DNA of 58,131 nucleotides, taken from assembly GCA_003153375.1 (NCBI GenBank), contig PLYM01000264.1:1-58131 (forward strand), written 5' to 3'. The notes under the pieces are model-generated. The model made no database searches. It was not told the origin of the DNA and worked only from the letters and a program-made list of their open reading frames with translations. Below are positions 33,256 to 46,202 of this stretch, piece by piece (position 1 is the first letter of the stretch; every line of letters begins with the position of its first letter). The position numbers and the translations under genes were made by a program. Source of the stretch: Planctomycetaceae bacterium (GTDB lineage Bacteria; Planctomycetota; Planctomycetia; Pirellulales; PALSA-1355).

Positions 33256-34089
33256 CTAACTGAGATCGGGCGGTATTGAACTCCGCCAATTCGAGCACGA
33301 TTGCGATTGAGGACCGTCCAATACCTCTGAGGGCAGGCGATGAACACACACCTTGGGTCCATTTCCCATTAGAGTCGTGTTGGGCTTATCTCGCCAGCCT
33401 AGTCGGCCACGCGGACGAAACTCTCCTAGGTCTGACCAGCTGAAGTCAATCCGGCGCTCAATTGATCCGGCATCATAGGAGGGCTCGCGCACGATTATCA
33501 CACCGCTGGACATTTTTTCACGACCGTTCCTTGTGGGATCGGGTGCGAATGTCAGGGTGATGCGCGCGACGAGTTGTTGCAGCGTTTGATGAAGAAGTTT
33601 GGGATCCTCGCCAATGAGTCCGAACTGCAAGCGGCGCACATCATGCATCGCGTTGGCGACAAGGCGTTTGAGATTAAGTGGCCTGCCGGCTTCGATTTTT
33701 TCCAACCGAATAGCCGTGCTATCTCGCTTGGCTTGCCACATCGAGAGCTTCTCAACTGCGCGTCGAGCCTGGCTTGGATTGGCAAGTAGCAGATTCTCCG
33801 TGGCTCGGTCGATGGTTTTGTCGAGGCTGGCGATTTCCTGCTGCAAGCGGGTTATCGCTGCCGGGCGATATGCTTTCCCGAGTTCCAATTTTAGGCGTGC
33901 ATGCAGACGATCCTCAAAGCCTTCGCCGAGCACCGTAGTTCGCAGCGTCCGTACCACACATTCCAGCAGCAGGGGCTCGTGGATCACACGTGACCTGCAC
34001 GCCGCCGGGCCACACTGCCGGAACGTGGAGCACACAAATCTCCGGTAGTAGCTGGTGACGTACTTTTGCCGGCCGCGAGAGAGCCGACT
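33256..34089 (-). pseudogene. Large serine recombinase, C-terminal remnant
   Basis: The frame, readable from about 34089, contains GRQKYVTSYYRRFVCSTFRQ followed by CGPAAC, a zinc-ribbon-like C-x(6)-C-x(4)-C arrangement, then ECVVRTLRTTVLGE and a long coiled-coil (AITRLQQEIASLDKTIDRAT). This is the order of the C-terminal half of large serine recombinases: zinc ribbon, then coiled coil. The catalytic resolvase domain with its serine is absent, and sequence upstream of 34089 is out of frame, so the gene is dead. It shows past integrase activity just before the unusual AAA+ cassette at 36.4 kb. Confidence 0.65.
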
Positions 34090-34287: not shown

Positions 34288-35673
34288 TCAGTCGACCTTG
34301 ACCAGTGAGAAGATCATGCTGGGGATGACCGGTTCATTCTTGGGGGCGGAGGCGATCATGCCGACGCCGGCGCCGCGGGCGGACTGACAGAGTTGCAGCT
34401 TGTCACCGGCTTTGACTTCGCCGACGCCTTGGCAAACCAGCACCGCAGTGTACTTGGGCGTGATGGTCTGCTCGGTGTTGGAGTTGTCGACGTCCTTGCC
34501 GTTCTGTCGCAGCCACAGCCGATCGGAACCCTGGCCGCTGCCGTTGCTGCTGCCCACCTGGCCGGCGGCGACGACGAAGTAGGTGCCGGCCTTCTTGACC
34601 GTCACGGTGCCCTTGTCGTTTTCGACGTCCTTGGCGGCGTCGATCGAGTTGAGCACGAGCGGCTTGCCGGTCGCCCCGCCGATCTGCGTTTCGCTGCTGG
34701 AGAGCTGGGCATAGGAGCTGTCGGCCACTTTGACGATCGAGAGGATCATGCTCGGCACCACGGGCTCGCCCTTGGGCCGCGAGGCGACCATGCCCAGTCC
34801 GGCGCCGGTGCTCGATTGCAGCAGCTCGACTTTGTCGCCGGCTTTGCACTCCATCACGCCCTGGCAGACCAGCACCGCGGTAAAGCCGTTGGCGATGGCT
34901 TGCTCGGTGTTCGAGTTGTCGACATTCTTGCCGTTTTGCCGCACCCACAGGCGGACGCTGCCCTTGCCGTTGGTGTCGGTGGCGCCCGTCTGGCCGGCGG
35001 CCATCACGAAGTAGGTGCCGGCCTTCTTGATGGTGACCACGCCCTTGTCGTTTTCGACTTCCTTGACGGCGTCGTTCGAGTTCAGCGTAATCGCCTTGCC
35101 GGCCGCGGCGGCGGGCTGCGACTCGGTGCTCGACAACTGGGCATAGGCACTATCGTCGACCTTGAAGGCCGAGAAGATCAGGCTGGGAATGACCGGCTCG
35201 CCCTGGGGCTTCGAGACGATCAGGCCCAGGCCCTCGCCGCCGGAGCTGACCGAGAAAGTGACCTCGAGCTTATCGCCGGCTTTGATTTCGGCGACGCCCT
35301 GGCACACCAGCACGGCGGTAAAACCCTCGGCAATGGTCTGCTCGGTGTTCGAGTTGGCCACGTCCTGTCCGTTTTGCCGCATCCACATCCGCACGCTGCC
35401 TTTGCCTTTGCCGCCGGAGCTGCCCACCTGGGCGGCCGCCATCACGAAGTAGGTGCCGGCCTCTTTGAACGTGACGGCGCCCTTGGAATTGGTGATGCCC
35501 TTCAGCGCATCGTCCTGGTTCATCGTGACCACCTTGGGCGTGGTGTCACCGATTTGGGTTTCGGAGCTGGAAAGTTGGGCAAATGAGCCCGCCAGTGAGG
35601 GCGCGGCGACCAGCGACGCAGCGACCAAGGCAACGAATGGGGCGAAGTGGATCTTCTTCACAGTGATTTTCAC
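34288..35673 (-). CDS. Secreted protein with three tandem C1q/TNF-like domains
   Basis: A 461-residue protein. A signal peptide (FAPFVALVAASLVAAPSLAG) is followed by three consecutive repeats of about 140-145 residues (about 30-175, 176-318, 319-461). Each begins (Y/F)AQLSSxE(T/S)Q, has 'KxAGTYFVxAAxQxG', 'xWxRQNGxxVxNSNTEQxI', 'TAVLVCQGVxExKAGDK', 'GxGxxxSxPxxEPVIPSxI' and ends with KV(D/A). This is the jelly-roll pattern of C1q/TNF or BclA-C-terminal domains, which normally assemble as trimers. Three in one chain suggests a single-chain trimer. Ligand unknown. The hairpin at 34201-34236 marks its 3' end. Confidence 0.75.
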   Translation of the reverse strand: MKITVKKIHFAPFVALVAASLVAAPSLAGSFAQLSSSETQIGDTTPKVVTMNQDDALKGITNSKGAVTFKEAGTYFVMAAAQVGSSGGKGKGSVRMWMRQNGQDVANSNTEQTIAEGFTAVLVCQGVAEIKAGDKLEVTFSVSSGGEGLGLIVSKPQGEPVIPSLIFSAFKVDDSAYAQLSSTESQPAAAAGKAITLNSNDAVKEVENDKGVVTIKKAGTYFVMAAGQTGATDTNGKGSVRLWVRQNGKNVDNSNTEQAIANGFTAVLVCQGVMECKAGDKVELLQSSTGAGLGMVASRPKGEPVVPSMILSIVKVADSSYAQLSSSETQIGGATGKPLVLNSIDAAKDVENDKGTVTVKKAGTYFVVAAGQVGSSNGSGQGSDRLWLRQNGKDVDNSNTEQTITPKYTAVLVCQGVGEVKAGDKLQLCQSARGAGVGMIASAPKNEPVIPSMIFSLVKVD

Positions 35674-36376
35674 AGCGATTCTCCGTTTGCTCGAGACAAT
35701 GACGTCGCAACCCGCGACGGGGGCCGCCTGGCCTACCGCAAATACGAAGAGAAACCGCTTCTCGCAGAGCTGGGCTGCTTAAGTCCGCAGTGAGCCGGCA
35801 GAAACCAGCTCGAGAAAACGGCTTGTCATCTGATTTTTCTGCAACCCATCCCACCATTTGGTGCATGGAATCAGAGTGCATTCGATTGTCTCACCGAAAG
35901 GCGTCGTGTCAAGCAACCGCGCGCAATCCGAGCCGAAATCTGCACCTGTCGCCCGCAGCACTGTCGGCCGGGCCAAACATGGCCTTCTTGTTGAGGTCAG
36001 CCCTTCGCCTCGGCGATGCAGGCCGCACTTCGACCTGGTGCTTTCGTTCTGCCAGGGATCGATGCCCGGCTCCTGGGGAATCACGCCACGCGGCCGCGTG
36101 GCCTGGCCCGTTCGCCTGCCTGGTTCGGCAGATTGAATAAACCAGCATGCCAATGTCCGCGCGGAACCGACACAGCTTTCAGGACCGCCGGGCCAATATC
36201 TCGTCAGCTTAATAACTCGCATTTTCATGGCATATGAGATAGGGAGCACGCCTAGCTCTTCGGGATCCCGCTCTGGGCGACCACTGCGATCGCGCGCTGA
36301 TCGTCACCGTTCGTGTCGGAGGTTGCGCGGCGTCCTGTCGAAGCAATTCATCTCATCAAGCCACGGAGATCGCCCA
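35674..36376. other. Intergenic stretch upstream of the AAA+ cassette
   Basis: About 700 bases with no supported gene. It separates the divergent C1q-like gene and the cassette and should hold both promoters. GGAG at 36365-36368 is the ribosome site of the first cassette gene. A minus-strand frame of 156 codons (35779-36249) has no family likeness. Confidence 0.45.
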
Positions 36377-36541
36377 TTGAACTTCACGGTGTTCGTCTTC
36401 AGCAGCATGTCATTGGCCATGACCTTTTTGGTCCTGGCGCTGGCTCGCGAAATCCGCCTGCGGCGCGGCCTTCGACAATTGTTTACCAAGTTATTGGCCC
36501 ATTGGAGAAGCCACCATGCCGACGATCGTTCACCGGACTAG
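36377..36541 (+). CDS. Short single-span membrane protein, first gene of the cassette
   Basis: TTG 36377, eight bases after GGAG, gives 54 residues: a hydrophobic helix at about 3-22 (FTVFVFSSMSLAMTFLVLAL), a strongly basic segment (REIRLRRGLRQLF) and a polar tail. The N-terminus would lie outside and the basic part in the cytoplasm. The gene overlaps the next one by 26 bases, which supports that both are translated. No family recognised; it may tether cytoplasmic partners to the membrane. Confidence 0.5.
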   Translation: MNFTVFVFSSMSLAMTFLVLALAREIRLRRGLRQLFTKLLAHWRSHHADDRSPD

Positions 36542-37085
36542 TCCACTCATACTTTTATTTCTAGTGACCGTTGGCTGCGGAGGATCCGATGGTCGCCTGG
36601 TCGAGCTGTCGGAACGCAGCCTTGCCAGGCAATCCGAACAGAATCAACAGACGGCAAAACAGAGCACTGAAGTTGCCAAGGCCACGCGACAGCTTGTGGC
36701 GGCGGACTCTCAGGCCCGTCAAGAATTGGTCGCGGCTCAATCGCACCTGGAGAGCGAACTGCATACAGAGCGAGCCAGTCTCGATCGGCAGCATGAACTC
36801 CTGGAGGTTGAACGGAAGGAGTTGGCTAAGCAACGGCATCGAGAGCCGATCTTGGCTGCGGCCATCATGCAAGCCGCGGCGTTGCTCGCATGCGTACTTC
36901 CGATTTTTCTGTGCGTGTACATTGTCAACGCGTTGCGCCGTGAAACGCCGAGCGCAGAACTCGAAGCGCTGCTCATTCAGGAGTTGGCCGAACCACAACT
37001 GCTGATTGACCGACAATTACCATTGCTCCCCGACGTGCCAAGTTGCCAGCAACTACCGGTCATTCCCCACGACGAGAACCAATAA
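36516..37085 (+). CDS. Membrane coiled-coil protein with lipoprotein-like signal
   Basis: A 189-residue protein with GGAG eight bases before ATG 36516. The N-terminus is hydrophobic and ends in a cysteine (PLILLFLVTVGCGG, C21), so a lipoprotein signal is possible although the lipobox is not ideal. Residues about 30-110 are a long heptad coiled coil (ELVAAQSHLESELHTERASL). A clear membrane helix follows at about 111-136 (AAIMQAAALLACVLPIFLCV) and then a 50-residue acidic, proline-containing tail. If C21 is not processed the first segment is a second membrane helix. Function unknown; it may be the membrane part of the AAA+ cassette. Confidence 0.7.
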   Translation: MPTIVHRTSPLILLFLVTVGCGGSDGRLVELSERSLARQSEQNQQTAKQSTEVAKATRQLVAADSQARQELVAAQSHLESELHTERASLDRQHELLEVERKELAKQRHREPILAAAIMQAAALLACVLPIFLCVYIVNALRRETPSAELEALLIQELAEPQLLIDRQLPLLPDVPSCQQLPVIPHDENQ

Positions 37086-37109
37086 CATTTCCAACCGGAG
37101 GACTGCCAG

Positions 37110-37481
37110 TTGTCACACATTGTGCAAATCCAAACGCAAGTCCGTGACCCCGGGGGAGTCGCCGCCGCTTGCCGGCGATTGGCACTTCCTCAACCCATCG
37201 AGCAAACCGTTGAGTTGTTCGCCGCTAAGGCGACCGGTCTGACGGTTCAATTGCCCGGCTGGCGGTATCCGATCGTTTGCGATCTGGCTGAGGGGCGAAT
37301 TGAGTTCGACAACTTCGGTGGAAGCTGGGGTGACCAGGCTCAACTCGACCGATTCCTTCAGGCTTACGCCGCTGAAAAATCCAAGCTGGAGGCCCGCAAA
37401 CGAGGCCACACGGTCACCGAGCAGGCCTTGGCCGATGGCTCGATCAGGCTGACGATTCAAGTCGCCGGAGGTGCCGAATGA
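37110..37481 (+). CDS. DUF1257 protein (Ycf35-like)
   Basis: TTG 37110 follows GGAGGA by seven bases; the next residues SHIVQIQTQVRDPGG match the family start (MSHFxxIxTxIxD). The 123-residue body contains 'QLPGWRYPIVCDLAEGRIEF' and 'DNFGGSWGDQAQLDRFLQAY', the typical central block, and ends in a short strand (GSIRLTIQVAGG). DUF1257 is the family of the plastid/cyanobacterial ORF Ycf35, whose molecular role is unknown. The stop overlaps the next start (ATGA), so it is coupled to the DUF2997 gene. In the same operon lies a Ycf46-like AAA+ protein. Confidence 0.82.
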   Translation: MSHIVQIQTQVRDPGGVAAACRRLALPQPIEQTVELFAAKATGLTVQLPGWRYPIVCDLAEGRIEFDNFGGSWGDQAQLDRFLQAYAAEKSKLEARKRGHTVTEQALADGSIRLTIQVAGGAE

Positions 37482-37672
37482 CGCGGAGCATCGAAATCAT
37501 CATCTCGCCCACCGGCCAGGCCAAACTAGAAACCAGAGGTTTTGTCGGCGACTCGTGCCGCGAGACGAGTCGCTTTTTGGAACAGGCGCTAGGCACTCGG
37601 GTTGACGAACAACTGACGGCCGAGTTTCACCAGAAGCCTACTCTCGAACAGTCGCAGCAGCTCAGGCCGTGA
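37478..37672 (+). CDS. DUF2997 protein
   Basis: A 64-residue protein, translationally coupled to the DUF1257 gene. It shows the DUF2997 pattern: RSIEIIISPTGQAKLETRGF, then VGDSCRETSRFLEQALG with the conserved Cys, and ends ERLTAEF-like (DEQLTAEFHQKP). The fold is a short beta hairpin plus helix. DUF2997 and DUF1257 genes are commonly neighbours, and the conserved Gly-x-x-Cys suggests a shared binding surface or redox/ligand site, but nothing is known. Complete, with no sign of decay. Confidence 0.8.
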   Translation: MTRSIEIIISPTGQAKLETRGFVGDSCRETSRFLEQALGTRVDEQLTAEFHQKPTLEQSQQLRP

Positions 37673-37711
37673 TCCGGCCACGAGGCAAACCAGTATCTCG
37701 CTGTCCCACCC

Positions 37712-37885
37712 ATGAGACGCTCTGCCCGCCCACCGGTCATGGCGATCTGTAAAGCCAGTCGACTGGGCTCTCAGCAATGGGCCACCATTTTCCCTGCTCG
37801 TGTCGGGAGTCCACGCAGGAAGGTTGCGGCAGCTAAGGGCAACTGGCTACCAGGGAACCGCCTGGATGTCTTTGTCCAAAGTTGA
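37712..37885 (+). CDS. Possible small basic protein in the cassette gap
   Basis: A 57-codon frame (alternative ATG at 37739, 48 codons) ending GNWLPGNRLDVFVQS fills most of the 279-base gap between the DUF2997 and AAA+ genes. The C-terminal half looks protein-like and basic (SPRRKVAAAKG). There is no good ribosome site and no known family. It could equally be a leader region for the ATPase gene. Confidence 0.25.
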   Translation: MRRSARPPVMAICKASRLGSQQWATIFPARVGSPRRKVAAAKGNWLPGNRLDVFVQS

Positions 37886-37951
37886 CCAGCCCTGCGGTCA
37901 GCTTCGCCTCACGCTTTTCCAAACGCCTAATCCTTTTAAGGAGCATTGCGC

Positions 37952-39448
37952 ATGCTTGCGGATCGTTTGGCCGAGTACATCTCGGCCTGTTTTACCGGTA
38001 TTTGGATCGAGTCCCACGAGCACGAGGATGTCCTGGCCGAGATCGCTCAGTTGTGCCATCGCGAACACTGGACACTCGCAACCTGGGACGTAGACCGCGG
38101 CCTTCGTCGGCCAGGAACGAGCGCCGAGTCATCGGCCGCTTTGGGGCCAGACCCGCTGGCGGCCATTCGCTCACTGAACGCTTTGGCATCGGCCGACGGT
38201 TCGGCAATCTTGGTTCTGACCAACTTCCACCGGTTTCTGAACAGCGCCGAAATCATCCAGGCCCTGGTCCACCAGATCTTGGCCGGCAAACAGAATCGAA
38301 CGTTTGTCGTGATCCTGGCACCGGTGGTGCAGATTCCAACCGAGCTCGAAAAACTCCTGGTGGTGGTTGAGCACGAGCTACCCAACCGCGCGCAACTCAC
38401 TGAGATTGCCCGGGGCATTGGCAATCAGCCGGGAGAGTTACCCGATGGTCCCCAGTTGCAAACCGTTCTCGACGCAGCGTCTGGCCTGACGCGTTACGAG
38501 GCGGAAGCCGCCTTCAGTCTGTCGCTGGTCCGACACAGCAGAATTGCAGCTGACGCTGTCTGGGAACTCAAAACCAACATGCTCAGGAAGAGCGGTCAGT
38601 TATCGCTGCACCGAGGAACGGACGATTTCAGCAGCCTAGGAGGACTGAGTTCGCTTAAGGTGTTCTGCAAACGATCGCTCCTGCAGCCGAGTCGAAACGA
38701 GCCGCACAAGCGTCCTCGCGGGGTCTTGCTCCTGGGCGTGCCGGGCACAGGTAAGAGTGCCTTTGCCAAGACACTTGGCCAAGAAACAGGAAGGCCCACC
38801 CTATTGCTGGACGTAGGCGCATTGATGGGCTCATTGGTCGGTCAATCAGAGCAAAACATCCGCCAAGCGCTGCGGATTGCCGATGCAATGGCACCGGCAA
38901 TCCTTTTCATTGATGAGTGCGAAAAGGCGCTCAGCGGTGTGGCCAGCTCCGGGCAAACGGACTCCGGCATCTCCGCACGGCTGTTCGGATCGTTACTTAC
39001 TTGGATGAACGACCATACGTCGGACGTCTACCTGGTGGCCACCTGCAACGATATCTCCAAGTTGCCGCCGGAGTTTAGTCGTGCCGAGCGATTCGATGGG
39101 ATCTTCTTTCTCAATCTTCCTGGCCGTACGGAGAAGGATGCAATCTGGCAGCTTTACTTGCAACAGTTCCGCTTGGAACCCATTCAGCGGTTACCCAACG
39201 ACGAAAACTGGACCGGAGCAGAAATCCGAGCCTGCTGCCGCTTGGCCGCGCTGCTTGACCTGCCCTTAATGCAGGCCGCCCAGAATGTCGTGCCCGTGGC
39301 GGTCACCGCGACGGAATCTGTGGAACGACTGCGTCAGTGGGCGAATGGCCGGTGCTTAAGCGCTGACGAATCTGGCATTTACTGCGACCAGACAAGCCGC
39401 AGCTCAAAAGCTCGTCGGCGGGTCAATCGCGACCCTTCAAACAACTAG
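37952..39448 (+). CDS. Ycf46-like AAA+ ATPase
   Basis: ATG 37952 lies eight bases after AAGGAG and gives 498 residues. The N-terminal half (1-215) has the layout of Ycf46: 'LAEYISACFTGIWIESHEHE', 'ATWDVDRGL', then 'AILVLTNFHRFLNSAEIIQA' and 'VILAPVVQIPTELEKLLVVV', a degenerate P-loop-like domain. The second half is an active AAA+ module: Walker A GVPGTGKS with K268, Walker B ILFIDE with D321/E322, sensor-1 VYLVATCND, and 'PPEFSRAERFDGIFFLNLPG' with arginine fingers. It should form a hexameric ATPase acting on proteins. It is the likely motor of the cassette, with DUF1257, DUF2997 and the membrane coiled-coil protein as partners. In cyanobacteria Ycf46 is linked to regulation, not a catalytic pathway. 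Confidence 0.85.
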   Translation: MLADRLAEYISACFTGIWIESHEHEDVLAEIAQLCHREHWTLATWDVDRGLRRPGTSAESSAALGPDPLAAIRSLNALASADGSAILVLTNFHRFLNSAEIIQALVHQILAGKQNRTFVVILAPVVQIPTELEKLLVVVEHELPNRAQLTEIARGIGNQPGELPDGPQLQTVLDAASGLTRYEAEAAFSLSLVRHSRIAADAVWELKTNMLRKSGQLSLHRGTDDFSSLGGLSSLKVFCKRSLLQPSRNEPHKRPRGVLLLGVPGTGKSAFAKTLGQETGRPTLLLDVGALMGSLVGQSEQNIRQALRIADAMAPAILFIDECEKALSGVASSGQTDSGISARLFGSLLTWMNDHTSDVYLVATCNDISKLPPEFSRAERFDGIFFLNLPGRTEKDAIWQLYLQQFRLEPIQRLPNDENWTGAEIRACCRLAALLDLPLMQAAQNVVPVAVTATESVERLRQWANGRCLSADESGIYCDQTSRSSKARRRVNRDPSNN

Positions 39449-39520
39449 CGCCGCGCTAGCAACTGGCCGTTGCGCCGACCTGTATTGCCTCGACACTCGA
39501 CAACCTTGGAGATGATTTAC

Positions 39521-40465
39521 ATGAGCACATTGTTGGATGAATCCGCCACGCAACGGACCGAAACGGCGGCCGGCCGCTTGCGTACCAGCATGGCCGCCGT
39601 GCGGCTCAGCTTTACTTGGTTCGGCGTCCGTAAAAGCCTTTCGGCCGAACAGAAGCTGCAGGCGGCCGATTCTTTCGGCGCCGAAGGCAACTATCTTTCG
39701 GCCGGCAAGAAACTGTTTGACACCGGTCACCCCGCGTTTCGCGCCGTCACTGCCGTCCGCCATCAAGCAGTTTCACTTTGGCGAGCTCTGAGTCTGCCCT
39801 ATCCGGAAGCCGGGATCCGACTCATCCGGCAGCACGACATTGCCACCTTTGACGTCCGAATGACCAGCCTCCGCGCTGAACTAGACGAATCGGTTCGGTA
39901 TCTCGATGAACATTTTATCGAGCTGAAGGCCAACGCTCGGGTACGACTGGGCCGTCTGTACAACGCTGCTGACTACCCGGAGACGCTCGATGGGCTCTTC
40001 AAGCTGGAGTACGACTTCCCGTCCGTGGAACCACCCGAGTATTTGCGGCAACTCAGCCCCGCGCTTTACGAACAGGAAAAAGCTCGCATGACCGCTCGGT
40101 TCGACGAGGCCATCCGCCTCGCGGAACAAGCCTTTACGAGCGAACTGGCCAAATTGATCTCGCATCTCTCTGAGAGAATCTCGGGACACGAAGACGGTAA
40201 GCCCAAGATCTTTCGAGACTCTGCGATCACGAATCTGGCTGATTTCTTTGAGCGATTCGGACAGCTCAATGTGCGATCCAACGAACAGCTGGATCACTTG
40301 GTAGCCCAGGCTCAACAGATCGTACGTGGAGTTGAGCCGCAAGAGCTCCGCGATAGCAGCTCTCTGAGGCAGCACGTGGCCACGCAACTGGCCGGAGTGC
40401 AAGCCGTATTGGACGGCCTGTTAGTCGACCGACCGCGCCGCAACATTCTGCGCAGGGCTAAGTAA
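39521..40465 (+). CDS. Helical cytoplasmic protein of unknown function
   Basis: ATG 39521 follows GGAG by nine bases; 314 residues without signal or membrane segment. It is largely helical, e.g. RLRTSMAAVRLSFTWFGVRK at the start, DVRMTSLRAELDESVRYLDE in the middle and AEQAFTSELAKLISHLSERI towards the C-terminus, with a conserved-looking block 'GHPAFRAVTAVRHQAVSLWR'. The family was not named by me. Its stop codon overlaps the next start by one base and it follows the ATPase gene by 72 bases, so it belongs to the same operon and could be a substrate or adaptor of the AAA+ protein. Confidence 0.65.
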   Translation: MSTLLDESATQRTETAAGRLRTSMAAVRLSFTWFGVRKSLSAEQKLQAADSFGAEGNYLSAGKKLFDTGHPAFRAVTAVRHQAVSLWRALSLPYPEAGIRLIRQHDIATFDVRMTSLRAELDESVRYLDEHFIELKANARVRLGRLYNAADYPETLDGLFKLEYDFPSVEPPEYLRQLSPALYEQEKARMTARFDEAIRLAEQAFTSELAKLISHLSERISGHEDGKPKIFRDSAITNLADFFERFGQLNVRSNEQLDHLVAQAQQIVRGVEPQELRDSSSLRQHVATQLAGVQAVLDGLLVDRPRRNILRRAK

Positions 40466-40722
40466 TGAACTGCACCTTGCACTTGGTTGTTGGAGTCGAC
40501 GGATCGATCCGCTGCATCTACGGCGAAGTGTTGGACTTCGCGGCCTTGGGATCTATGACCATCACGCGGGCCAGCCATGTTGAACCCACCTCCGGCGGTC
40601 GGTGGCTCGCCGACCTTGCGCCGGTTGGCGGTCCGGTTCTAGGACCGTTTGACAGACGTGGTCAGGCACTCGATGCCGAACAGGATTGGCTAGACGCGCA
40701 CTGGCTTTCTGTGTCCGTCTAA
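40465..40722 (+). CDS. Small protein of unknown function, coupled to the preceding gene
   Basis: An 85-residue protein whose ATG overlaps the preceding stop (TAATG). It begins with a strand-rich region (CTLHLVVGVDGSIRCIYGEV), then 'LGSMTITRASHVEPTSGGRW', 'PVGGPVLGPFDRRGQALDAE' and ends WLDAHWLSVSV. No signal or membrane segment. The pattern 'S.VEP...G.W.ADL.P.GGP.LGPF..R..AL..E..WL' recurs in short proteins of accessory modules, where it may be a DNA- or protein-binding adaptor, but I cannot name it. Part of the cassette operon. Confidence 0.6.
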   Translation: MNCTLHLVVGVDGSIRCIYGEVLDFAALGSMTITRASHVEPTSGGRWLADLAPVGGPVLGPFDRRGQALDAEQDWLDAHWLSVSV

Positions 40723-40825
40723 GCGAGCAGTCCATCGCGGCTGTCGCCGATTCGCTTCATCTATCCCGGGAATTGCCGCGCGTTCGCGCTGCGCCCTTCC
40801 ACTAACGGTTCGAAAGGACTTCACG

Positions 40826-40993
40826 ATGACCCAATCCGATCTTGACCGCGCGGTGGCGGCCGCCACCGGTGAGTCTGTCAGCACCATCAGCCGACGAGGC
40901 TTTGTGCTTCTGACTCCAGACCTCGTCGAGCGCGATCCACTAGTCGTCGACTGGGACGCACTCGAAATCGATCGTGTGGCTCTGTTTGAATAG
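40826..40993 (+). CDS. Short acidic protein, last gene of the operon
   Basis: ATG 40826, nine bases after AAAGGA, starts 55 codons: MTQSDLDRAVAAATGESVST, then a middle with Arg-Arg (ISRRGFVLLT) and an acidic tail. The N-terminus (TQSDLDRAVAxATGES) recurs in small proteins of planctomycete accessory regions. It could be a DNA-binding-like or antitoxin-like adaptor; there is no firm domain. It is followed within 28 bases by the strong terminator at 41021-41060, which ends the operon. Confidence 0.55.
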   Translation: MTQSDLDRAVAAATGESVSTISRRGFVLLTPDLVERDPLVVDWDALEIDRVALFE

Positions 40994-41020
40994 CGCGCTC
41001 TGCGACAAAACGTTGTTAAG

Positions 41021-41060
41021 CGGCGGTCCGGGGTGCCACGATCGCGGACCGCCGTTTTTT
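41021..41060 (+). terminator. Strong intrinsic terminator closing the AAA+ operon
   Basis: CGGCGGTCCG (41021-41030) pairs perfectly with CGGACCGCCG (41045-41054) across a 14-base loop, followed directly by six T (41055-41060). This is the classical factor-independent arrangement on the plus strand, placed 27 bases after the last stop of the operon. Confidence 0.85.
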
Positions 41061-41147
41061 CTCCCCGGTTTCTTGATGGACCGGTTCAATTCAGCGCTCA
41101 ACGATTATGTTCCGTGAGCGAGGACCTCTCTTCAGCGAAAACCCGAA

Positions 41148-41846
41148 ATGCCTGAACAAATAATCTACGAAAAACCAGAACCATCGGCGCGCCCCCAGAC
41201 GAACGCGCTCCATGCCAAGGCCCCTCACCACCGCGCAAGATCGCAAGCAAGTGTACTGGTCGTCGTCGAAGGCCCTAACGATATCGAGTTTCTCAGACGC
41301 ATCAGCCGGATCTTGCATGTCGATGATGTCTCGATCCCCGATCTAAACGAACTGGAGGCGATGGGGGAATTGGTCTTCGTCCCATTCGGCGGTGGCTGCT
41401 TGCATTATTGGTCCTATTGCCTGGCACCCCTTGCTTGGCCGGAGTTCCATCTCTACGACCGAGAGCTGCCGCCTGAGACCAGGCTGCGAAAGCAAGCAGC
41501 CGCAGCCGTCAATAGCCGTGCCGGATGTCGAGCCGCGGTCACCAGCAAGCGCAGTCTCGAAAACTACCTGAGCCCTTCTGCCATTCGAGACGCGAAGGGT
41601 ATCGCAGTCGAGTTTTCAGATGATGACTCCGTGGCGGAAGTCGTGACACGCGCTTGTCTGCCATCACATTGCAAATGGGAGGACTTTTCGCGCAAAGCGC
41701 AACGAAGATTTCGCAACCGAACCAAAAAGTGGCTCAACACAACCGCCGTAGACCACATGACACCGGCACGACTGGCCGAGCAAGATCCGGCTGACGAGTT
41801 GGTGGATTGGCTCCGAGCCATCGATGGTCTGGCGACAGTCGGCTGA
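41148..41846 (+). CDS. Stand-alone TOPRIM-domain protein
   Basis: A 232-residue soluble protein. Residues 35-120 show the TOPRIM order: VLVVVEGPNDIEFLRRI with E41 on the first strand, and 'FHLYDREL' as the DxD-type acidic strand. A Gly-rich 'VFVPFGGGCLHYWSY' lies between. The remainder (about 125-232) is basic with 'SKRSLENYLS' and 'AQRRFRNRTKKWLN', suggesting nucleic-acid contact. This resembles the TOPRIM part of OLD-family nucleases or RNase M5-like proteins, without the ATPase half. It lies after the operon terminator and so has its own promoter in 41061-41147. It may be a nuclease effector of the cassette; that is inference. Confidence 0.72.
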   Translation: MPEQIIYEKPEPSARPQTNALHAKAPHHRARSQASVLVVVEGPNDIEFLRRISRILHVDDVSIPDLNELEAMGELVFVPFGGGCLHYWSYCLAPLAWPEFHLYDRELPPETRLRKQAAAAVNSRAGCRAAVTSKRSLENYLSPSAIRDAKGIAVEFSDDDSVAEVVTRACLPSHCKWEDFSRKAQRRFRNRTKKWLNTTAVDHMTPARLAEQDPADELVDWLRAIDGLATVG

Positions 41847-41852
41847 ATCTGC

Positions 41853-42098
41853 ATGCAGGGTGGGACGCTGGATCTGAAATCCTGTTGGTTCCTGCCCACC
41901 GCCAAACGGATGGCTCGATTCGGCCACTCATTACCATGCACGGAAAACGGATCGCGACCGAGCGTTCCCGATCAGGCCGCTTTGTTTGAACTTGAAGTCT
42001 CCCCATACAAGTCCCGCCGGTGGCCCACGATGTCTTCAGGTGATTCTTCCGGCCGCCGCTCCCTAGACAAGTCGAGGCGAATATGCCACTCAAACTAA
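41853..42098 (+). CDS. Possible small protein between TOPRIM and next gene
   Basis: An 81-codon frame that starts six bases after the TOPRIM stop and overlaps the next start by 16 bases. It reads MQGGTLDLKSCWFLPTAKRM and later SVPDQAALFELEVSPYKSR. Spacing and fairly protein-like sequence make it possible; there is no known family and a competing frame overlaps it. Confidence 0.3.
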   Translation: MQGGTLDLKSCWFLPTAKRMARFGHSLPCTENGSRPSVPDQAALFELEVSPYKSRRWPTMSSGDSSGRRSLDKSRRICHSN

Positions 42099-42571
42099 AT
42101 GTCGGAATCAGCAAGAAGGTTGGATTGCCAGGCTACAGCTCCCTCGGTGCCTCTTGTCATGTTGAGGTCGAATTGGATCAGTCGCTCGTGTTTGATGACC
42201 CTGAAGGCTTTCAGGAACGCGTCAAGAAAGCGTACAACGCTTGCAGTCGCGCGGTGACCAACGAGCTCACTCTGCAACGGCAGGTTCGTACAACGCTGGT
42301 TGACAATGATGAGGCCGGCCCAGCGACGTCATCCAACGATCAACACGACGGTTACCGCGCGTCCCAGAAGCAAATGGATTATCTCACACAAATGGCAGGT
42401 CAGATCCGCGGTCTGGGATCGCGCAAATTGGATCACCTGGCCGAACACATGTTCGGCAAGCCGCTCGCCGACCTCTCGAATCTCAATGCGTCGAGCCTGA
42501 TCGCTGTGCTCAAGGAAATCAAGCAGGGCAAGATCGATTTGGCGACAGCTTTAAACGGGGCCACAGCGTGA
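42083..42571 (+). CDS. Accessory-type hypothetical protein
   Basis: A 162-residue protein that starts LKLNVGISKKVGLPGYSSLG, then ASCHVEVELD, a beta-rich N-terminal block (about 1-60). This start recurs in hypothetical proteins of planctomycete accessory regions next to replication or integration genes. A helical segment with a Cys (AYNACSRAVTNELTLQRQVR) and a linker follow. The C-terminal 70 residues (QMDYLTQMAGQIRGLGSRKL) resemble the short helical 'SxxQxxFLxxLAxxIxxLG' domain used by DNA-linked proteins. No catalytic motif. It ends the cassette region and has its own terminator about 300 bases downstream. Confidence 0.6.
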   Translation: MPLKLNVGISKKVGLPGYSSLGASCHVEVELDQSLVFDDPEGFQERVKKAYNACSRAVTNELTLQRQVRTTLVDNDEAGPATSSNDQHDGYRASQKQMDYLTQMAGQIRGLGSRKLDHLAEHMFGKPLADLSNLNASSLIAVLKEIKQGKIDLATALNGATA

Positions 42572-43322
42572 TTGCGCGGCCAGGAAGGCAGCCACCGGGC
42601 GCGCACCGTTACCGCCAGATTCCGGATTTGAAAGACATGTCTCATGGTCGTTGCTTGCGTATCGACTGGCGCCCCACAGACTTGTTCAGCGCCCATCAGT
42701 CCGCGAACCGTCGACAGCGGCTGGTTACTCCGAGGTGGCTGTTCATACCCGCGACATTCTCACAAAATCGAAGGACGCGGGCCTCGCTGGGCAAACCTAT
42801 CTATTCGCACTTTTTGGTGGTCGAGCCGCGCAAGGGTCGACAGTAAGCTACAAGGTCGGGAGTCGCGCGAGTTGAAATCGAATGTGGGGCCGCGGTTCGG
42901 CGGCCCCACATTCCCAATTTTTTTAGCTATCGGGACGATCACTGCTGGAGCAAACAAGTCGAGAAAAAAGCGCGTGCAAACGAGGGCGATCGCGGCGACG
43001 ATTCGAGCTCACGTCAACAGCCGACTGCGGAGTGGATTGATGTGAAGTGCTAGCGAAATGCGGCTTTCCTTGGGGCAGGATCAGTTCGCTGGTGAAAATG
43101 CGGAAACCGCGCCCCGGGAAAGGCCCGTCGAGTGCCAGGGAAAGGCCAGCCAAGTGGTAGACGCCAAGGTTGCGAGGCGTTATCACAATAGCGGCCATGT
43201 CGCGGTTGTGCCGCCTCGAGCTTGCTCAAAAGTTTGGAGCGTCAAATGCGAGGACGATGGCTTGGCGACCGGTCGAAATCGACCGAATGGAATGTTCACT
43301 TTTGACTTCGGAGTGTCCGAGC
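42572..43322. other. Intergenic region with one strong terminator
   Basis: About 750 bases with no supported gene. It contains the terminator at 42881-42924 and, towards 43322, the leader of the large repeat-protein gene (GGAG nine bases before ATG 43323). Several 60-130 codon frames here lack homology. Confidence 0.5.
42881..42924 (+). terminator. Strong intrinsic terminator
   Basis: AATGTGGGGCCGC (42881-42893) pairs perfectly over 13 bases with 42900-42912 across a six-base loop; seven T follow at 42918-42924. It probably ends the transcript of the gene at 42083-42571. Confidence 0.85.
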
Positions 43323-46202
43323 ATGCGATCTCCCCTCAGCGACGCCGGGTGGCTGTCGCGCGCTGGGTCCTCGGCGGCCAGCAAGGCCCGCCGGCCTGAG
43401 AATCACGCCAGCCTGTCGATCGAGTCGCTAGAAGTTCGCCGATTGCTCACCGTGGCATCGCCGTCTGACGGCGACACGGCACTCGTCGCACTGGCCACCG
43501 CGGGCGGCCCGACGGCATCGCCGGCTTTCCACGCGATTCCCAGCAATGGCCCGGTTGCCTCGCCAAACATCGGCGCCGCCGTGGCTGGGCCGCCGGCCAT
43601 CACGCCGGCCACCATCGCCGAGAATCACCAGACCACCTCGGGACTGGTGATCACTCCCGCCGCCGCCGATGTCCCGGTGGTGGCGAACTACCTGATCACG
43701 GGTATCACCCACGGCTTGTTGTTTCTGAATGACGGCACCACGGCCGTCAGCAATGGCACCATGATTACCCTGGCCCAGGGCGCCGCCGGGTTGAAGTTCA
43801 CCCCCGATACCAACTTTGTGGGCCAGGCTAGCTTCACGGCCCAGGAATCGTCCGACGCCACGCCGGCCGACGCCAACGGCGCCACGGGTGTCGCGGCGAT
43901 CACCGTCACCCCCGCCGTGCTGGCCGGGCCACCCGCCGTCACTGCGGCCACCGCCGCCGGGACGCATCAAACCACCTCGGGGCTGGTGATCACCCCGGCC
44001 GCCGCCGACGGATCGCTGGTAACCAACTACCTGATCACGAGCATCACCCACGGCTCGCTGTTCCTGAACGATGGCACCACCGCCGTCAGCAACGGCACGT
44101 TGATCACCGTGGCCCAAGGCGCCGCCGGGCTGAAGTTCACCCCGGCCGCCAGCTTCGTGGGCCAGGCTAACTTCACGGTTCAGGAATCGCCCGACGCCAA
44201 CGCGGCCGACGCCAGCGGCACCACCGCCACGGCAGCGGTGACCGTCAATTTGAACGGGCCGCCCAGCGTGATCCCGGCCGTCATCGGCGAGAATCATCAA
44301 ACCACCTCGGGACTCGTAATCTCGGCCGCCGCCGCGGATGGCGCGCTGGTGACCAATTACCTGATCACGAACATCACCCACGGCACGTTGTTTCAGACTG
44401 ACGGCACCACCGCCATCAGCAGCGGATCGATGATCACCGTCGCCCAGGGCACCGCCGGGCTCAAGTTCACGCCGGACACCAACTTCGTGGGCCAGGCCAA
44501 CTTCACGATCCAGGAATCGCCCGACGCCAACGCGGCCGACGCCAGCGGCACCACCGCCACGGCGGCGATCACCGTCACCCCCGCCGTGCTGGTCGGACCG
44601 CCGGCCATCACGCCCGCCACGATTGCCGAGAATCATCAAACCACTTCGGGACTCGTCATCACCCCCGCCGCCGCGGATGCCGCGTTGGTAACCAACTACT
44701 TGATCACCAGCATCACCCACGGCTCGCTGTTTCTGAATGACGGCACCACCGCCGTCGCCAATGGCACGATGATCACTCTGGCCCAAGGGGCCGCCGGGCT
44801 GAAGTTCACCCCGGCCACCAACTTCGTGGGCCAGGGCAGCTTCACCGTTCAGCAGGCGCCCGACGCCGTCGTGGCTGACGCCAGCGGCATCACGGCCGTT
44901 GCGGCAATCACCGTCACCCCCGCCATGTTGACCGGCCCGCCGGCCATCACGCCGGCCACCACGACCGGCACGCAACAAACCACCTCGGGACTCGTGATCA
45001 CCCCCGCCGCCGCGGATGGCACGCTGGTGACCAACTACCTGATCACCAACATCACCCACGGCTCGTTGTTTCTGAATGACGGCACCACGGCCGTCAGCAA
45101 CGGCTCGATGATCACCCTCGCTCAGGGTGCCGCCGGGCTGAAGTTCACACCCGCCGCCAGCTTCGTGGGCCAGGCCAGCTTCACCGTCCAGCAATCGCCC
45201 GACGCCACGCCGGCCGACGCCAGCGGCACGACCGCCACGGGATTGGTGACGGTCAACCTGACGGGACCGCCCAGTGTGACCTCGGCCGTCGCGGGCGAGA
45301 ATCATCAAACCACTTCGGGATTGGTGATTCTTCCCAGTGCCGCCGAGACCGCGTTCGTCACCAATTTCCAGATCACGAACATCACCGGCGGCACGCTGTT
45401 CCAGCATGACGGCACCACGGCGATCAACTCGGGCGACTTCATCACCCTGGCCCAGGGAGCGGCCGGACTCAAGTTCACGCCCACCACCGGTTCGACGGTC
45501 ACCGGCACCTTCACGGTGCAGGAATCAACCACCGCCAATGTCGGCGGGCTGGGAGGAGCGACCGCCACGGCCACCATCATCGTCGTACCGTCTTTCGTGA
45601 TCGCCCTCTATCAAGATGTGCTGCTGCGGCCGTTTGACGACGCGGGCGGGGTCTTCTATGCGAACCAGCTAGTCACCGGCACCGCGCCCGAGACGATCGC
45701 CGCCGCGTTTTGGGAATCGGCCGAGCACCGCGGCATCGAAGTCGACGGTTATTATCAGCAGTTCCTGCACCGCCCCTCCGACGCCAGCGGCCGGGCGATG
45801 TGGGTCAACGATCTGTTGGACGGCCAGGGCGAAGTCGCGGTGATGACGGGCTTTATCCGTTCAACCGAATACCAACTGCTCCATCCGACGACCACGCAGC
45901 TTGTGACCGCGCTGTACAACGACGTGCTCCATCGCGCGCCCGATGTCGTGGGGATGTCGGGCTGGGTGACGATGCTGACCAACCAGAATCTGACCCAGTT
46001 GCAGGTGATCCAGAGTTTCATGAGCTCCCACGAGCGCCATCAGCAACTGATCGACTCCTTCTATAGCTCCTATTTGCAGCGGCCTGCCGATTTCGGAGAG
46101 CTCGGCTGGATCGCCCTGCTCGATCACGGCCTGGTCGACGACCAGTTCATGGCCGAGGCTTTCTTGTCATCGCAAGAGTTCATTATCAAGAACCCGATTT
46201 GA
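43323..46202 (+). CDS. Large extracellular tandem-repeat protein with C-terminal DUF4214
   Basis: ATG 43323 gives 959 residues. The N-terminus contains NHASLSIESLEVRRLLT, the planctomycete LExR-xLL motif. Residues about 89-757 are six repeats of 110-113 residues, each starting GPP, with 'HQTTSGLVI', 'NYLITxITHGxLF', 'DGTTAV', 'GAAGLKFTP' and 'FTVQES'; the fold is probably Ig/cadherin-like. The end (about 758-959) is DUF4214: 'VIALYQDVLLRPFDDAGGVF', 'YYQQFLHRPSDASGRAMWVN', 'ALYNDVLHRAPDVVGMSGWV', a domain seen in exported and S-layer-like proteins. It is likely a surface protein, adhesive or structural. An upstream start at 43170 is possible but has no support. Confidence 0.8.
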   Translation: MRSPLSDAGWLSRAGSSAASKARRPENHASLSIESLEVRRLLTVASPSDGDTALVALATAGGPTASPAFHAIPSNGPVASPNIGAAVAGPPAITPATIAENHQTTSGLVITPAAADVPVVANYLITGITHGLLFLNDGTTAVSNGTMITLAQGAAGLKFTPDTNFVGQASFTAQESSDATPADANGATGVAAITVTPAVLAGPPAVTAATAAGTHQTTSGLVITPAAADGSLVTNYLITSITHGSLFLNDGTTAVSNGTLITVAQGAAGLKFTPAASFVGQANFTVQESPDANAADASGTTATAAVTVNLNGPPSVIPAVIGENHQTTSGLVISAAAADGALVTNYLITNITHGTLFQTDGTTAISSGSMITVAQGTAGLKFTPDTNFVGQANFTIQESPDANAADASGTTATAAITVTPAVLVGPPAITPATIAENHQTTSGLVITPAAADAALVTNYLITSITHGSLFLNDGTTAVANGTMITLAQGAAGLKFTPATNFVGQGSFTVQQAPDAVVADASGITAVAAITVTPAMLTGPPAITPATTTGTQQTTSGLVITPAAADGTLVTNYLITNITHGSLFLNDGTTAVSNGSMITLAQGAAGLKFTPAASFVGQASFTVQQSPDATPADASGTTATGLVTVNLTGPPSVTSAVAGENHQTTSGLVILPSAAETAFVTNFQITNITGGTLFQHDGTTAINSGDFITLAQGAAGLKFTPTTGSTVTGTFTVQESTTANVGGLGGATATATIIVVPSFVIALYQDVLLRPFDDAGGVFYANQLVTGTAPETIAAAFWESAEHRGIEVDGYYQQFLHRPSDASGRAMWVNDLLDGQGEVAVMTGFIRSTEYQLLHPTTTQLVTALYNDVLHRAPDVVGMSGWVTMLTNQNLTQLQVIQSFMSSHERHQQLIDSFYSSYLQRPADFGELGWIALLDHGLVDDQFMAEAFLSSQEFIIKNPI
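43587..45593 (+). repeat. Six tandem repeats of about 335 bases inside the surface-protein gene
   Basis: Six direct repeats with high DNA identity encode the six 110-113-residue units. Units 1, 3 and 4 end with TVTPAVL-like linkers and units 2 and 5 with TVNL, so the copies form two alternating linker types. Identity at third positions suggests recent duplication or ongoing homogenisation. Strand follows the gene. Confidence 0.85.

Follow-up and report, generated by a model that had tools for sequence, protein, structure and literature searches.

We analyzed a 58,131-nucleotide contig (PLYM01000264.1, here called the window), one contig of the 6.7-Mb assembly GCA_003153375.1 of a Planctomycetaceae bacterium, on which genes for a DUF1257-like protein, a DUF2997 protein and a Ycf46-type ATPase lie side by side. 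The reading we put forward, with a probability of roughly one half, is that the trio lies at the heart of a mobile and modular protein machine organized around the Ycf46-type ATPase, a chaperone-centered conflict module. The three families are linked partners in many phyla, and in the clade of the window they belong to a constant core that reaches up to seven DUF2997 copies per genome, is followed by one of several mutually exclusive cassettes and sits in neighborhoods rich in integrases and defense genes. The constant core of the window comprises the following genes:

37110..37481, forward strand: DUF1257-like protein of 123 amino acids, with a TTG start and an M-S-H N-terminus
37478..37672, forward strand: DUF2997 protein of 64 amino acids (PF11211), whose near-invariant cysteine is C27
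37946..39448, forward strand: Ycf46-type ATPase, with a degenerate N-terminal AAA-like domain and an active AAA domain
39518..40465, forward strand: p315, DUF3150-related by a profile link through a gene of plasmid CP114554
40465..40722, forward strand: p85, a small conserved core protein, within 5 kb of DUF2997 in 44/83 loci
40826..40993, forward strand: p55, a small conserved protein and the final gene of the constant core, within 5 kb of DUF2997 in 36/83 loci

The initial annotation of this DNA had placed the trio at these positions on the forward strand, and all three genes were confirmed there. The DUF2997 gene, which overlaps the DUF1257-like gene by 4 bases, is a firm match to PF11211 (61.3 bits against a cut-off of 24.1), and its cysteine is kept in 0.99 of 147 sequences. 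A Nfu-like reading of DUF2997, suggested by a motif, was dropped, a structural match being absent. The assignment of the first gene to DUF1257 (Ycf35) did not hold by Pfam gathering score: PF06868 reaches 18.2 bits (E 0.0029) on the window protein, where 22.2 are required, and has no match anywhere in the genome when searched by itself. It did hold by way of intermediates: iterated profiles built on planctomycete relatives recover annotated DUF1257 records from other phyla (loci L085, L087, L088 and L089). Because these profiles join the window gene to annotated DUF1257 proteins, we accept it, on sequence grounds, as a divergent member of DUF1257 in the wide sense. The Ser-His start of the family is near-invariant (S 1.00 and H 0.91 of 171 sequences), and the window protein fits it.

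Translation of the ATPase may start at TTG 37946 or, likelier, at ATG 37952; the Walker residues K268 and D321/E322 named in the initial annotation are right when counted from the ATG, and become K270, D323 and E324 from the TTG. The Walker A lysine, the Walker B D-E pair and the sensor-1 asparagine are all intact, and the AAA domain matches PF00004 with 96.2 bits. The protein matches the Ycf46-type family over its full length, N-domain and AAA domain together, with 704 bits, and it matches the phage family phrog_8638, also at full length, with 284 bits. The window and cyanobacterial ATPases fall in one full-length family set, and the feared clustering with unrelated AAA+ families was not seen: other AAA proteins in nine test genomes reach at most ~147 bits in the AAA domain only, with three partial exceptions at 192-229 bits. 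Aligned to the family's own AAA domain with hhalign, the N-domain gives a probability of 81 (E 1.2e-5 over 158 columns) and contains no Walker A motif, and on this profile evidence the ATPase is best described as a dead AAA domain preceding a live one. Solved relatives found by sequence covered the AAA half only. In a FastTree phylogeny of 202 ATPases, in which long branches make fine detail unsafe, the window falls among planctomycete loci that carry p315, and five cyanobacterial loci with the order small gene, ATPase, DUF1257 lie on one side of a full-support branch. The presumed tie to the name Ycf46 rests on the identification of slr0374 in the literature (PMC7496141) and on operon order.

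Linkage among the three families was counted with profile searches on stop-to-stop frames, anchored on DUF2997 (83 planctomycete loci of ~114 distinct places) or on the ATPase (the best 80 of 574 genome matches and the best 80 of 407 viral matches). Within 5 kb of DUF2997, DUF1257 was found in 81/83 loci and the ATPase in 75/83, always on the same strand, and both were present in 56 of the 59 loci with 5 kb of sequence to either side. When anchored on the ATPase, the genome loci contained, at a distance of up to 6 kb, DUF1257 in 55/80 cases, DUF2997 in 37/80 and either in 59/80; the corresponding viral figures were 26/80, 24/80 and 28/80. Co-occurrence in other genomes was likewise found. Among 392 genomes of the phylum, the ATPase N-domain is present in 60/60 with DUF2997 versus 63/332 without it (Fisher p 1.8e-36, uncorrected for phylogeny), and a sample of the cyanobacterial phylum gave the ATPase in 68/68 genomes with DUF2997 versus 6/49 without, so that every DUF2997 genome has the ATPase. 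Two natural fusions of DUF1257 with DUF2997 were observed, in a viral locus (L232) and a planctomycete locus (L130). The functional partnership proposed in the initial annotation is well borne out by this linkage in many phyla, genome co-occurrence and natural fusion, and we regard the three families as partners with near certainty.

The genome of the window contains three DUF2997 genes in total and an equal number of full-length ATPases, paired at distances of ~500 bases at most, which is more than chance. A stretch of ~5.5 kb (window 36226-41815), with homology starting near 36226, is common to the three copies, whose flanks are unrelated; the other two copies are 69-75% identical in DNA to the window copy and 90% identical to each other. 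DUF2997 is present in 14/57 relatives and in 60/392 of the phylum's genomes, a single genome holding as many as seven copies, and the module is patchy and multicopy in planctomycetes. The trio is also carried by Nitrospirota, Aquificota, cyanobacterial and Bacillota plasmids and by Aeromonas phage HJ05, and it occurs in archaea, phage contigs and cyanobacteria. The description of a pair encoded side by side outside cyanobacteria is too narrow, the trio being present on cyanobacterial plasmids too. A tblastn search of DUF2997 against phage records found none, and no relative emerged when viral sequences were scanned with just the window ATPase; the family profile A1 did retrieve viral relatives. 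Full-length ATPase relatives are common in viral contigs (L232-L311), some of them longer than 300 kb and mostly without recognizable DUF1257 or DUF2997.

Within the window clade, the core follows the order DUF1257, DUF2997, ATPase, p315, p85, p55, to which a TOPRIM-like gene is added in 12/44 p315 loci. The p315 protein itself is without a Pfam match; its profile matches the plasmid CP114554 gene, which in turn matches PF11348 (DUF3150) with 37.7 bits. What follows p55 is exchangeable. A tagging cassette, made up of genes for a ubiquitin-like (Ubl-like) protein, an E2-like protein with a cysteine-rich RING-like part, a JAB protein and an E1 protein, contributes at least one gene in 16/44 p315 loci and three or more in 13/44. 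A sliding-clamp-like gene, whose profile matches bacterial sliding clamps at a best E of 9e-6, occupies this place in 13/44, and the two were found together in 0/44. The home-made gene calling behind the gene clusters and the flanking proteins is crude, overlooks small genes and includes some antisense frames. The cassette E1 is a firm ThiF match (80.5 bits). The Ubl and JAB proteins remain below threshold, at 19.5 versus 22.5 bits for ThiS and 22.8 versus 25 for Prok-JAB, and their putative identities rest also on motifs and position. A JAMM-like pattern is present in 10/10 sequences and an HPH..C pattern in 12/12, which we take to be JAMM and E2 signatures, respectively. Alignment of the Ubl protein against the PDB gave nothing useful, and the RING-like part matched Midline-1 at E 0.0045 only. 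Some cassettes include a PD-(D/E)XK gene. The variable part of the window consists of the TOPRIM-like gene and a gene that we call p162. In locus L043 (8202-9557 of the oriented locus), the ATPase is absent and a shortened TOPRIM-like gene continues in frame into p315, like an internal deletion of the core.

The surroundings were assessed on two sets of 120 proteins, one drawn from the 191 proteins that flank 20 p315 loci and the other from the 213 encoded in 20 control stretches of the same genomes, ~0.7 Mb away. The flanks contained 5 phage integrases, 2 resolvases, 7 ThiF proteins and 3 AAA_15/21 proteins, together with others, among the 25 of 77 families listed; the controls contained no phage integrase, resolvase, ThiF or AAA_15/21 among the 25 of 126 families listed. 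PADLOC families matched at 1e-10 numbered 156 in the flanks versus 9 in the controls, a ratio that is not a count of systems, because a single protein may match many models and the counts take in the cassette's own E1 genes. The direction is clear: the surroundings of p315 loci are enriched in integrases and defense genes relative to controls.

In cyanobacteria the ATPase has a DUF1257 neighbor of its own. In five of five genomes checked, one ATPase is followed ~200 bases on by a DUF1257 gene, in an operon that begins with a small gene (110-116 amino acids) and whose DUF1257 gene encodes 116-117 amino acids (PF06868, 81.4 bits). Across a sample of 117 genomes, 58/125 DUF1257 matches, spread over 47/59 genomes, have an ATPase no more than 4 kb away, and 47 of these 58 belong to a class scoring 70-86 bits. 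The canonical Ycf35-like class (47 matches, at least 135 bits) adjoins DUF2997 in 46/47 cases and the ATPase in 0/47. The suggestion that the pair is specifically Ycf35 with Ycf46 therefore does not hold: in cyanobacteria the ATPase adjoins a different DUF1257 paralogue, and canonical Ycf35 adjoins DUF2997. Two Synechocystis studies identify slr0374 as Ycf46, describe the operon slr0373-slr0374-slr0376 as stress-responsive (PMC7496141), and give slr0376 a length of 116 amino acids (PMC2823733). By length and gene order, rather than by its sequence, slr0376 is probably the DUF1257 paralogue beside the ATPase. The operon resembles the module in its layout of small gene, full-length family ATPase and 116-amino-acid DUF1257 gene; unlike the window, the cyanobacterial chromosomal operon showed no DUF2997, p315, p85, p55 or effector cassette. 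A second Synechocystis arrangement, DUF2997-ycf35-fed7, is reported as cluster g in PMC4284462, and like the window it has DUF2997 beside DUF1257, but with a ferredoxin in place of the ATPase.

In combining a constant AAA core with exchangeable effectors in islands rich in defense genes, the module resembles the chaperone-based FtsH ternary (MoxR-vWA) systems that Kaur et al. 2020 (PMC7159879) describe. These too use a dead-plus-live AAA protein, have a tagging cassette or a radical-SAM gene in some variants, and are reported from planctomycetes. The window ATPase shares the tandem AAA architecture with a dead first domain, as its hhalign result indicates, and its relatives share JAB, E1, RING and Ubl-E2 tagging cassettes or radical-SAM genes in variants. 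FtsH ternary systems are centered on a MoxR ATPase and a vWA protein, whereas DUF1257 and DUF2997 are the constant elements here; no MoxR or vWA match was found among the eight window module proteins scanned, so we do not class the module as an FtsH ternary system, though it appears to work like one. Their text makes no mention of ycf46. The AAA domain of the window also matches IetA models of the IetAS system (63 and 58.2 bits), but the latter score is far under the IteA cut-off of 510, and no IetS protease or subtilase match was found among the eight proteins. A description of the trio was not found in the open-access literature searched, in which just three papers name DUF1257 or DUF2997.

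Outside the window clade, ATPase loci have other partners. Within 6 kb, an NrdG-like radical-SAM gene (PF13353) occurs in 25/80 genome loci, Hsp70 in 22/80 and a WD40/HEAT-like gene in 23/80, and GrpE-like genes occur as well; nine of the NrdG-like proteins were scanned, and all their NrdG scores fell under the cut-off. Three Chloroflexota loci (L159, L160 from Levilinea, and L161) share the order ATPase, WD40/HEAT-like, GrpE-like, Hsp70, DUF1257, DUF2997, NrdG-like radical-SAM, parts of which recur in archaea, Actinomadura and planctomycetes. In Spirochaete loci (L179, L183, L184, L223, L370 and plasmid L091), the ATPase, a radical-SAM gene and, except in L091, DUF2997 lie beside phage hub-like or baseplate-V genes, and these relatives possibly represent a contractile injection locus; Phage_GPD was tested on L179 only. 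Seven planctomycete and Verrucomicrobia loci (L123, L131, L135, L136, L211, L213 and L226) combine a second radical-SAM family (~276 amino acids) with a TPR protein and a membrane protein.

The remaining features of the window module are as follows:

36407..36541, forward strand: possible small membrane protein encoded first in the module, start uncertain, its cluster covering 6 type I loci, one of them the window
36516..37085, forward strand: TM, with a lipoprotein-like N-terminus, a coiled coil and a single C-terminal membrane helix (by eye)
41148..41846, forward strand: TOPRIM-like predicted nuclease, motifs and name by eye
42083..42571, forward strand: p162, probably a cassette gene, downstream of the module, its cluster in 5/44 p315 loci

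The TM family is present within 5 kb of DUF2997 in 19/83 planctomycete loci. In the TOPRIM-like protein, the motifs E-G-x-x-D, D-x-E and K-R-S-L-E-N-Y-L are invariant in 8/8 aligned sequences; Pfam and PADLOC scans gave nothing useful and its alignment found no match in the PDB, hence a name given by eye. The p162 gene lies outside the stretch common to the three genomic copies and adjoins a PD-(D/E)XK gene in some p315 loci. Internally repeated proteins flank the module (34288-35673 and 43170-46202), their repeats being ~72-80% identical in DNA, and an open reading frame at 33259-34035, without a Pfam match, resembles on inspection by eye a serine recombinase's coiled-coil end.

In the reading we put forward, the ATPase would be a ring-shaped remodeling chaperone, with the dead first domain as scaffold and the live second domain as motor. 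Because their genes overlap or are fused, DUF1257 and DUF2997 may be read as one small adaptor unit, which would deliver clients to the ATPase, and we lean towards this adaptor-chaperone role. The variable cassette (ubiquitin-like tagging, sliding-clamp-like, or a TOPRIM-like or PD-(D/E)XK nuclease) would act as the effector, which the machine would either arm or set free. Its most likely use in planctomycetes would be conflict with phages or other mobile DNA, a role that the neighborhood evidence makes about an even call. In cyanobacteria, the same core would have been retained for regulation, in the case of Ycf46 in CO2 use and stress. Several observations weigh against this reading. Neither major cassette is present in 15/44 p315 loci, the window included; ATPases with no DUF1257 or DUF2997 at their locus are common (21/80 genome and 52/80 viral loci); the trio also occurs in regulatory-looking loci, on cyanobacterial chromosomes and in Hsp70/GrpE/radical-SAM operons; and the inclusion of E1 genes in the PADLOC counts belongs here as well. 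The adaptor idea, moreover, is without structural support. An AlphaFold2 model of DUF1257 (predicted local distance difference test score, pLDDT, 91; predicted template modeling score, pTM, 0.82) and a weak model of DUF2997 (pLDDT 70.6) each found no solved structure in the PDB at E 0.001 or better, the best VIA-align Z for DUF1257 being an uninformative 4.9.

The rival that fits next best, which we regard as possible though doubtful, holds that the trio serves as a chaperone in the maturation or quality control of iron-sulfur or redox proteins, that it shares the handling of a client with a ferredoxin or an NrdG-like radical-SAM activase, and that mobile elements are mere carriers. The radical-SAM, Hsp70 and WD40/HEAT-like neighbors outside the window clade, the near-invariant cysteine of DUF2997 and the DUF2997-ycf35-fed7 cluster of Synechocystis (PMC4284462) all speak for it, as does the joint, habitat-linked presence and loss of ycf34, ycf35, ycf46 and pbsA across 127 red algal plastids, reported in PMC5940233. 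The p315 planctomycete loci, however, contain no such radical-SAM gene, and scans of the window module found no iron-sulfur or redox gene.

An origin as a phage structural or DNA-metabolism module, in which a phage ATPase and its accessory proteins were domesticated in planctomycete islands, appears improbable to us. It would account for phrog_8638 being the nearest named full-length family, for the trio in Aeromonas phage HJ05 and in 22/80 viral loci, for the Phage_GPD hub gene adjoining a Spirochaete relative, and for the clamp-like and PD-(D/E)XK genes of some cassettes; it agrees poorly with the many cellular loci that contain chaperone operons and with the grouping of p315-type planctomycete copies in the tree (5 changes over 202 rows) despite their scattered chromosomal places. 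Conserved and collinear genes could also reflect an ordinary planctomycete housekeeping operon held together by slow divergence, but this view, which we consider very improbable, is contradicted by patchiness (60/392 genomes), by copy numbers of up to seven, by the exchange of cassettes and by the mobile surroundings.

Red algal plastids have retained Ycf46 and Ycf35, for which no mechanism is known, and the chaperone-and-adaptor reading predicts that they act together with DUF2997; the cyanobacterial DUF1257 paralogue next to the ATPase, probably slr0376, is the first partner candidate. Of the proposal that partnership explains why both genes persist in plastids, the partnership stands, but the explanation is only partial, because the planctomycete copies are multicopy, patchy and set amid mobile and defense genes. 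We suggest tentatively that Ycf46 and Ycf35 may belong to the chaperone-and-adaptor core of a widespread modular system, which in planctomycetes would arm alternative effectors, among them a complete ubiquitin-like tagging cassette or a sliding-clamp-like factor, against phages or mobile DNA, and of which cyanobacteria and plastids would have kept the core and lost the weapons. If the planctomycete form does serve defense, a Ycf46-centered class, its tagging and DNA-clamp cassettes interchangeable, would join the chaperone-based conflict systems, and plastid genes of unexplained role would be linked to it.

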